Below are positions 14,101 to 40,611 of a stretch of 43,892 bases of DNA, piece by piece; position 1 is the first letter of the stretch, and each line of letters opens with the position of its first letter. The position numbers were made by a program, and so were the translations under genes. Source of the DNA: Lysobacterales bacterium (GTDB lineage Bacteria > Pseudomonadota > Gammaproteobacteria > Xanthomonadales > Marinicellaceae); assembly GCA_020442665.1 (NCBI GenBank), contig JAGRJP010000024.1, forward strand, positions 1 to 43,892, written 5' to 3'. A model generated the notes under the pieces. The model was not told the DNA's origin. It was given only the letters and a program-made list of their open reading frames with translations, and did no database searches.

Positions 14101-14141
14101 TGTATTTTACAATGACAGAACAATGACACTAAGAGACTGAT

Positions 14142-39065: not shown

Positions 39066-40487
39066 TTAATCAAAACCATTTTTGAAGATAATATCGTTGT
39101 CGCCCGTACCCTTGAGTCTTGCGACTGCAATTTTTTCGACTGCGTTATTGTTTGTAGCAGTACCTGTCAATAACACATTATCATTCGGGTCTATTGTTAC
39201 AGCGTATGAAATATTTACAACCTGAGATCCTACTCCATTAAAGGTAGTATCTGACCTGCCATTTCCGTATGCACCAAAGTTGTTTTCTATGGAGTAACTG
39301 CTTGTTCCGTTTGTGACACTTATAGAGTTCAGTCGCATCACTCCCATGTTGATGTACGACACATCTTCAGGATAGATGTTACCAGTTAATACGAGTTTGA
39401 AATCAGGGTCAGTAAAGACAGCATCCCTGCATGAGGAGTTTTTACTCAAGTTTGGATCAAGGTTAAAATTAAAAATATCACCTACCGGTTCACCGGCATT
39501 GGTATCTACTGTATTAATATAGGTAATTGCGCAGTCATCATCTTGGCTCCCCTGATGATTGTCATACCCTACAAAGATAAACTCATCGGAGCCTGGTTTT
39601 TTGATAGCATTATTTACAAATGAATCCCTACTGTCATTGTAAACATATTTTCCATCACTTGAGAAACTGGTATCGAGACTTCCGTTAAAGTTCATTTTTA
39701 TAATAACAGGTGATTCGGAATTATCGCTCTCATCAATACTTCCTAATATCCAGAATCCATGAAGTATTTTATAAGCTCTGGAACTATTCCCCATGTCAAT
39801 AATTAACTTGCCGTTAGTACCAAATCCTGTATCTAATGAACCATCACTTGCCAGAATCTTTGTTACTGAAATGTCGGTACCACCGGAACTATTCGCTGCA
39901 TAACCGGCAATATAGATAGAACCACCCGTATAAATCGCTGAGAAGGCAATATCTTCATTAGTTCCTCTGTTATCAAAAGCAATTGTTTTTTGACCATTTG
40001 TGCCAAAACTCAGAACTGGATCACCAGATGAATCCAGCTTAGCGACAGCAAAATCAGTATCATCATTGTTGAAATGAGCATATCCGATTGCATATATATT
40101 TCCGGAATCATCGACTAAAATATCATGAAGAAAGTCTTTATGTGTTTCCGTCCCTCTGTTAAAAGCGATGATTTCAGTACCGCTAAATCCAAAACTGGTA
40201 TCGATATTACCATTATGTAATATTTTAGTAACGAACATATCTGTTGTATCTTCGTTCGTATGATACGCATGACCACCAACGAGCATGGATGCATCTCCAC
40301 TCCCCGAATAGGAATAAATGGCTGTGCCAAACTCATCGCCTTCACCCGTGGGTGGAATAGTTCCAAGATTTTGTTCTAATAAAACCCTGCCATCGCTATC
40401 GAAAGTTTGATCCAAAGTACCAGCACCTTGTTGGGCAAAAGACAATGTTGTAGTTAGTAATGACAAGCTAAAAATTAAATGTTTCAT
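39066..40487 (-). CDS. Secreted delta-60 repeat protein with C-terminal IFKNGFD tag
   Basis: A 473-residue exported protein. After a signal peptide (cut near SFAQQ, about residue 19) come repeats of the delta-60 type (DQTFDSDGRVLLEQ; SGNIYAIGYAHFNNDDTDFAVAKL; DPVLSFGTNGQ; DGSLDTGFGTNGKL; NGSLDTSFSSDGKY), which form beta-propeller-like surface domains. It ends in GDNDIIFKNGFD, nearly the same tail as the beta-helix protein at 24741-26543. A GGAGAATAA ribosome-binding site precedes ATG 40487. It is divergent from the ToxR-like regulator gene, with the 11-bp repeat array between them, so it may be that regulator's target. Confidence 0.8.
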   Translation of the reverse strand: MKHLIFSLSLLTTTLSFAQQGAGTLDQTFDSDGRVLLEQNLGTIPPTGEGDEFGTAIYSYSGSGDASMLVGGHAYHTNEDTTDMFVTKILHNGNIDTSFGFSGTEIIAFNRGTETHKDFLHDILVDDSGNIYAIGYAHFNNDDTDFAVAKLDSSGDPVLSFGTNGQKTIAFDNRGTNEDIAFSAIYTGGSIYIAGYAANSSGGTDISVTKILASDGSLDTGFGTNGKLIIDMGNSSRAYKILHGFWILGSIDESDNSESPVIIKMNFNGSLDTSFSSDGKYVYNDSRDSFVNNAIKKPGSDEFIFVGYDNHQGSQDDDCAITYINTVDTNAGEPVGDIFNFNLDPNLSKNSSCRDAVFTDPDFKLVLTGNIYPEDVSYINMGVMRLNSISVTNGTSSYSIENNFGAYGNGRSDTTFNGVGSQVVNISYAVTIDPNDNVLLTGTATNNNAVEKIAVARLKGTGDNDIIFKNGFD

Positions 40488-40547
40488 GTTTATTCTCCAA
40501 TCAGTTTAAAAACTGTTTTCAATTATGAAAAATATGAAAAATTCTTG

Positions 40548-40591
40548 CTCGACATTTACTCGATTTCATCTCGACAACTTAACGACAAGCG
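40548..40591 (+). promoter_or_regulatory. Four tandem 11-bp repeats (CTCGACA-N4) between divergent genes
   Basis: Units start at 40548, 40559, 40570 and 40581: CTCGACATTTA, CTCGATTTCAT, CTCGACAACTT, AACGACAAGCG. Each is a heptamer plus a 4-bp spacer, the same geometry as PhoB or OmpR-family boxes. The last unit covers the -35 position of an extended -10 element (TG-A-TATACT, 40603-40611) leading to the ToxR-like gene. On the - side CATAAT at 40527-40522 could be the -10 of the delta-60 gene, with its -35 region at the first unit. Confidence 0.7.
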
Positions 40592-40602
40592 ATAAAAACC
40601 TG

Positions 40603-40611
40603 TGATATACT
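40603..40611 (+). promoter_or_regulatory. Extended -10 promoter element for the ToxR-like gene
   Basis: TGATATACT: TG, one base, then TATACT (5 of 6 to TATAAT). A -35 at 17-bp spacing would fall on CGACAA in the fourth repeat, which is not consensus, so an activator bound to the array is the likely substitute. Transcription would start near 40618, which excludes the GTG at 40602 as a start. Confidence 0.5.

Follow-up and report, generated by a model that had tools for sequence, protein, structure and literature searches.

The systems closest to the locus described here are those of PhoB, CadC, ToxR and HilA, the last a soluble protein in which a winged helix is joined to TPR-like repeats. The Pho box is given as two 11-bp repeats, CTGTCAT, in PMC2648988; PMC5430869 describes the sites of CadC as two AT-rich, head-to-head copies of a TTAxxxxT consensus; and for ToxR of Vibrio cholerae, direct repeats of the form TNAAA-N5-TNAAT at ompU are reported in PMC7496328. 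Here we have analysed a window of 43,892 bases, which makes up a single contig (C181) of an assembly totalling 2.86 Mb and 360 contigs, and in which an array of four 11-bp direct repeats lies between the gene of a predicted membrane regulator and the divergent gene of a secreted delta-60 repeat protein (Table 1). Judged from sequence, we put at about 70 % the probability that the neighbouring regulator has in this array an OmpR/PhoB-type operator of its own, from which it would drive the secreted gene and tune its own gene.

Table 1. Positions of the array, its flanking promoter elements and the two divergent genes within the window
Feature	Position	Strand	Details
Array unit 1	40548..40558	+	CTCGACATTTA; shares the register of GACA unit 1 at other loci
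Array unit 2	40559..40569	+	CTCGATTTCAT; degenerate core GATT
Array unit 3	40570..40580	+	CTCGACAACTT
Array unit 4	40581..40591	+	AACGACAAGCG; over the −35 position of the regulator promoter (ACGACA, 40582-40587)
Extended −10 of regulator gene	40603..40611	+	TGATATACT; TATACT at 40606-40611
−10 hexamer CATAAT of divergent delta-60 gene	40522..40527	-	27 nt from unit 1 TGTC start
Predicted membrane regulator, 764 aa	40650..42944	+	PF00486, PF14559; AlphaFold model, pLDDT 86.6
Regulator parts (residues)			winged helix 1-107; putative membrane helix ~118-138; alpha/beta ~150-265; TPR solenoid ~283-763
Secreted delta-60 repeat protein, 473 aa	39066..40487	-	signal-like N-terminus; C-terminal tag DIIFKNGFD

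A re-reading of the letters placed the starts of the four units exactly where the original prediction had put them. The units are tandem, equally oriented and set at a step of exactly 11 bp, the direct-repeat arrangement (10–11 bp) of OmpR/PhoB-type sites. The self-match at lag 11 was 31.3 for the 162-bp intergenic region, a score that 2000 dinucleotide shuffles failed to reach, whether at lag 11 or across lags 7 to 22, and the array was the top lag-11 place in the 43.9-kb window (30.4; runner-up 23.9). Elsewhere in the window, a two-unit TGACA repeat of 11 bp is present at 14109-14128 between two minus-strand genes, which we take to encode an aminotransferase-like and a long RNA-binding-like protein; no winged-helix gene adjoins it.

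The regulator was matched by PF00486 (Trans_reg_C) at 55.4 bits, against a cut-off of 26.2, indicating an N-terminal winged helix, and this domain also matches the structures of PhoB and CadC in sequence. Trans_reg_C and TPR families are the only Pfam assignments, so the protein has no phospho-receiver domain. A hydrophobic stretch is found near residues 118-138, with a helix at 120-132 in the model, where confidence is low. Of the NCBIfam families, HilA/EilA matched the winged helix best (E 1.5e-12); the 46.7 bits fall below the cut-off of 589, and membership of this family was rejected. When the complete model was searched by fold, most matches were to the TPR solenoids of proteins unrelated to it, such as MalT domain III, and did not inform function.

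Among related records, those with names belong to Marinicella species or to uncultured bins of Lysobacterales or Alcanivoracaceae. An operator would be doubtful if relatives with both genes had lost the periodic heptamers; we looked for such loss and found instead that the array is retained in G001, which has both divergent genes (regulator 41-42 % and delta-60 protein 49 % identical). G001 carries four CGA/TGA-anchored units at 11 bp (ATGACATTAAC, TCGACATCATC, GCGATTTCTTC and ACGACATTGAC, in the same register), and the last GACA starts 22 nt ahead of the start of TATACT, as it does in the window. The unit with the degenerate GATT core comes second in the window but third in G001, with the step unchanged. 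In a near-identical genome (G004) the delta-60 protein is 93 % identical, and the array and −10 are unaltered over the stretch compared, which ends with the contig 147 bases upstream of the delta-60 gene and short of the regulator. The 11-bp period is thus preserved in both genomes.

We also consider the array against the wider family of regulators that combine a winged helix, a membrane segment and TPR repeats, sampled at 80 places in 61 genomes among the matches listed, with matches starting near the start of the protein. The lag test was applied to 79 of the 80 promoters (L093, with 115 bases upstream, was dropped). Among these, 26 scored higher at lag 11 than at any other lag from 6 to 30, the mean score at lag 11 was 14.75 as compared with 5.79-9.12 at every other lag, and 23 promoters scored 20 or more, all for the matches listed. 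In control blocks farther upstream, lag 11 was best in 2/231 and none reached a score of 20. Many members of the family lack a clear array of 11-bp repeats (among the matches listed, 56 of the 79 promoters score below 20), which counts against the operator reading. Another explanation is that the repeats reflect an AT/GC periodicity, accidental or structural, and have no cognate protein: AT-rich intergenic DNA has short repeats, and single promoters score at other lags. This is very hard to reconcile with the shuffles, with conservation in G001 and G004 and with a family-wide excess confined to lag 11, and because the array is conserved in relatives we regard the explanation as refuted for practical purposes.

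The repeats also have a direction and a clade-dependent word. Among the matches listed, GACA-N7-GACA occurs on the sense strand of the regulator in 19/80 promoters and on the opposite strand in 0/80; the unit register was searched on the sense strand alone, and orientation was later checked on both strands. Near copies (L037, L046 and L091) and loci without a four-unit register (L047 and L092) were excluded from the register, bit-content and −10 counts, and L116 from the bit-content and −10 permutation counts. For 16 GACA-clade loci among the matches listed, the GACA positions of the unit carry 1.06-1.72 bits, as against 0.18 for the flank. The words found, again among the matches listed, were GACA at 11 bp (18 loci), TGAC at 10 bp (4), CTGA at 11 bp (5) and ATGACT at 11 bp (4). 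Placed on a quick tree (113 columns, many open forks), these labels, assigned to array classes by eye, needed 8 changes, as compared with 28.8 when shuffled. The proposed pairing of the array with the adjacent regulator is supported by this survey, in that the arrangement recurs in the family with words that follow regulator clades, and is local.

Departures from the 11-bp step were also seen. The 10-bp clade (L050, L051, L053 and L055) has repeats resembling TGACAAAATC, and L051, L053 and L055 carry TATAAT toward either side, at distances that hardly vary. In L047, whose genome (G048) belongs to another family of the order, the steps between GACA units are 11, 10 and 10 bp, and the units adjoin a related regulator and a secreted-protein gene.

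Promoter elements flank the array on both sides. The last unit covers the −35 position of the extended −10, as predicted, since a mechanical scan pairs TATACT with the ACGACA of unit 4 at an 18-nt spacer; this end of the array, in the window and in G001, suits either sign of control. The companion claim, that the first unit abuts a putative −35 of the divergent gene, was not confirmed: no recognisable −35 was seen there, and the hexamer at a 17-bp spacer (40545-40550, GAGCAA on the minus strand) has just 2/6 matches. The divergent −10 hexamer, CATAAT in the window and in G001, has an identical offset in most GACA-clade loci. An alternative −10 at 18 nt from TGTC (TATTAT in G001, CATATT in the window) was dropped, CATAAT at 27 nt being preferred because it is common to the window and G001 and fits the GACA-clade offset.

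In GACA-clade loci that are in register, the TGTC of unit 1 starts 27 nt from a divergent −10-like hexamer. Among the matches listed, this hexamer is TAnnnT in 11/15 loci and TTAAAT in two; the other two of the 15 (L038 and L116) have no −10 at this offset, which argues against the operator reading. For a permutation set of 16 listed loci, including the window and G001 and leaving out L116, L047 and L092, the mean −10 score was 3.52 at the fixed offset and −0.60 at the second-best offset, no random shift out of 5000 reached it, and the flanks have a pairwise identity of 29.7 %, as composition predicts. With the divergent −10 at a fixed distance, the array touches the −35 regions of two back-to-back promoters. 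A further point against the operator reading is that the half-site nearest the delta-60 −10 (unit 0) is degenerate or missing in the window. The nearest intact unit is consequently one turn farther away than in the GACA clade and corresponds to the upstream unit of the Pho box.

Regulators of the ToxR/OmpR family often autoregulate, and the array could act in negative autoregulation alone, blocking the regulator promoter while the secreted gene is constitutive or otherwise controlled. Within the array, GACA-clade loci among the matches listed have TTGACW (12/15) and GACAAT (10/15), 17 nt apart and in register. Such a −35/−10 pair would suit autorepression, yet its letters are those of the repeat itself, and the promoter reading may therefore be a by-product. 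Since autorepression by itself leaves the fixed divergent −10, the one-way orientation and the missing −35 there unexplained, we consider it unlikely and favour an operator that serves both genes.

We also looked for a regulon. The original prediction came with a proposal to scan for CTCGACA-N4-CTCGACA; a scan of the window's own genome gave no exact match, a 3-mismatch scan of it gave one weak place (G000:C304) with no winged-helix gene nearby, and the same genome has no second four-unit array with a −10. With nothing convincing outside the array from either own-genome search, the regulon reading was abandoned. Across 33 family genomes, exact GACA triples occupy 32 separate places (hand-merged from pattern matches), of which 14 are upstream of listed regulators. 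One triple, in G027:C89, was found from the DNA pattern alone; it is flanked by another winged-helix gene and, on the divergent side, by a secreted gene of a type that other loci also have. The remaining 17 places compare with 15 matches of the reversed control pattern, so that triples are near control level away from regulators. Two of the 17 were inspected (G028:C26 and G008:C31), and that in G028:C26 may be due to chance because no winged-helix gene is present there.

Another OmpR-family regulator, above all the host PhoB, might instead bind the array, with both genes belonging to the Pho regulon. TGTC repeats at 11 bp do resemble a Pho box, and the genome has a PhoB-like response regulator adjoining genes that, from their translations, we presume to be phoU- and pstB-like. 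However, the units of the window read TGTCG rather than TGTCA, and both word and period vary according to which regulator clade lies next to the array, a pattern for which a single shared regulator would not account. TGTCA-N6-TGTCA is, moreover, at control level in this genome (4 vs 3), and none of three such places inspected outside the window is beside a recognised phosphate gene. Binding by PhoB is therefore improbable, and we retain the adjacent regulator as the likely binding protein. A strict Pho box of two CTGTCAT-like units was also tried and rejected, there being four minus-strand units that read TGTCGTT, TGTCGAG, AATCGAG and TGTCGAG.

The divergent partners are of several unrelated kinds, several of which end in the tag IFxxxF(D/E) or in a tail of IPTL-like type. 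The reading of the delta-60 product as a tagged protein was borne out, with unrelated divergent proteins ending in DIIFKNGFD, DVIFKNSFD, EEIFKDSFE, DLIFEDGFE or what we take to be an IPTL-like tail (the names of such tails are our assignment). The occurrence of these tags and tails on unrelated exported proteins suggests common surface sorting. The form (D/E)xIFxxxF(D/E) was observed at the delta-60 C-terminus (39066-39092) and in the divergent proteins of L038, L040, L048, L035, L036, L089 and L091. Among the matches listed, all 18 loci with GACA-class arrays have a divergent frame bearing an N-terminal hydrophobic stretch as judged by eye; an automatic signal-peptide rule gave a weaker association (15/18 array loci vs 30/62 others among the matches listed, p 0.014). 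Five sister-clade regulators (L041, L043, L044, L072 and L076) have neither array nor divergent secreted gene. At L117 (2128-2163), a GACA triple is on the strand opposite a secreted-protein gene that is downstream of a regulator and co-directional with it; TGTC again points to the secreted gene.

The sequence itself establishes the array, the conservation and direction of its units, their constant spacing from both −10 elements, and the recurrence beside paralogous regulators. That the adjacent regulator is the binding protein is our inference, as are the membrane topology, the sign of control at either promoter, periplasmic sensing and the identity of any signal. In the proposed mechanism, a membrane-anchored regulator with a cytoplasmic winged helix, one membrane helix and periplasmic alpha/beta and TPR domains would bind the 11-bp repeats head to tail, one subunit per unit. 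The array sits between two back-to-back promoters and touches the −35 region of each. Toward the delta-60 gene the units are in Pho-box orientation (TGTC...), where an activator replaces the −35, and for this reason the regulator most likely activates the secreted gene and tunes its own gene through the same sites. A broader and rather doubtful extension is that Marinicella-related bacteria have multiplied private surface-protein switches, each comprising a TPR membrane regulator, a clade word and one divergent exported protein with a C-terminal tag, in which the array activates the partner and damps the regulator and the periplasmic TPR solenoid might sense partner export. If the solenoid does sense the export state of the partner, regulator and partner would form a closed export-feedback loop.

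Each element of this locus is of a known kind and, as far as our literature searches reach, the new feature is a recurring array with a clade-specific word between a regulator and an exported partner. In open-licence PMC text we found no paper on a Marinicella winged helix, on CadC/ToxR-like autoregulation via 11-bp direct repeats or on delta-60 repeats (DUF5122) in regulation, and none of the papers on Marinicella transcriptional regulators there concerned such arrays by title. Unstudied regulators of a largely uncultured group thus gain a candidate operator, the positions of two promoters and a single obvious target, which makes their function directly testable. The paralogues, with their own words and a 10- or 11-bp step, provide a natural series for DNA choice by OmpR-type winged helices, and delta-60 and other tagged secreted proteins become linked to dedicated regulators.

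In comparison with known systems, the regulator differs from HilA in its likely membrane segment and in scoring far below the family cut-off. It would resemble ToxR as a membrane winged-helix regulator on direct repeats; where the ToxR repeats have 10-bp spacing and A-rich words, the array described here has GACA cores at 11 bp, and the 10-bp step of ToxR is also that of one clade here (L050, L051, L053 and L055). The likeness to CadC of Escherichia coli would lie in a cytoplasmic PhoB-like winged helix, a putative single membrane helix and a presumed periplasmic sensor, and the winged helix matches the CadC structure 5ju7 (E 1e-5), although the array here is head-to-tail at 11 bp and the sensor would be a long TPR solenoid. 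From PhoB the regulator differs in being probably membrane-anchored, in having no receiver domain and in facing four or five units rather than two, and from the Pho box the array differs in being common to two divergent promoters, with units in the window that read TGTCG and a degenerate unit 0. Shared with PhoB and the Pho box are direct repeats with a period of 11 bp, made up of a 7-bp core and 4 further bp, with TGTC toward the activated gene. In E. coli phoA, 16 nt separate the TGTC start of the second unit from TATAGT, and in the GACA clade the distance from the unit-0 position to the −10 is likewise 16 nt (27 minus 11).
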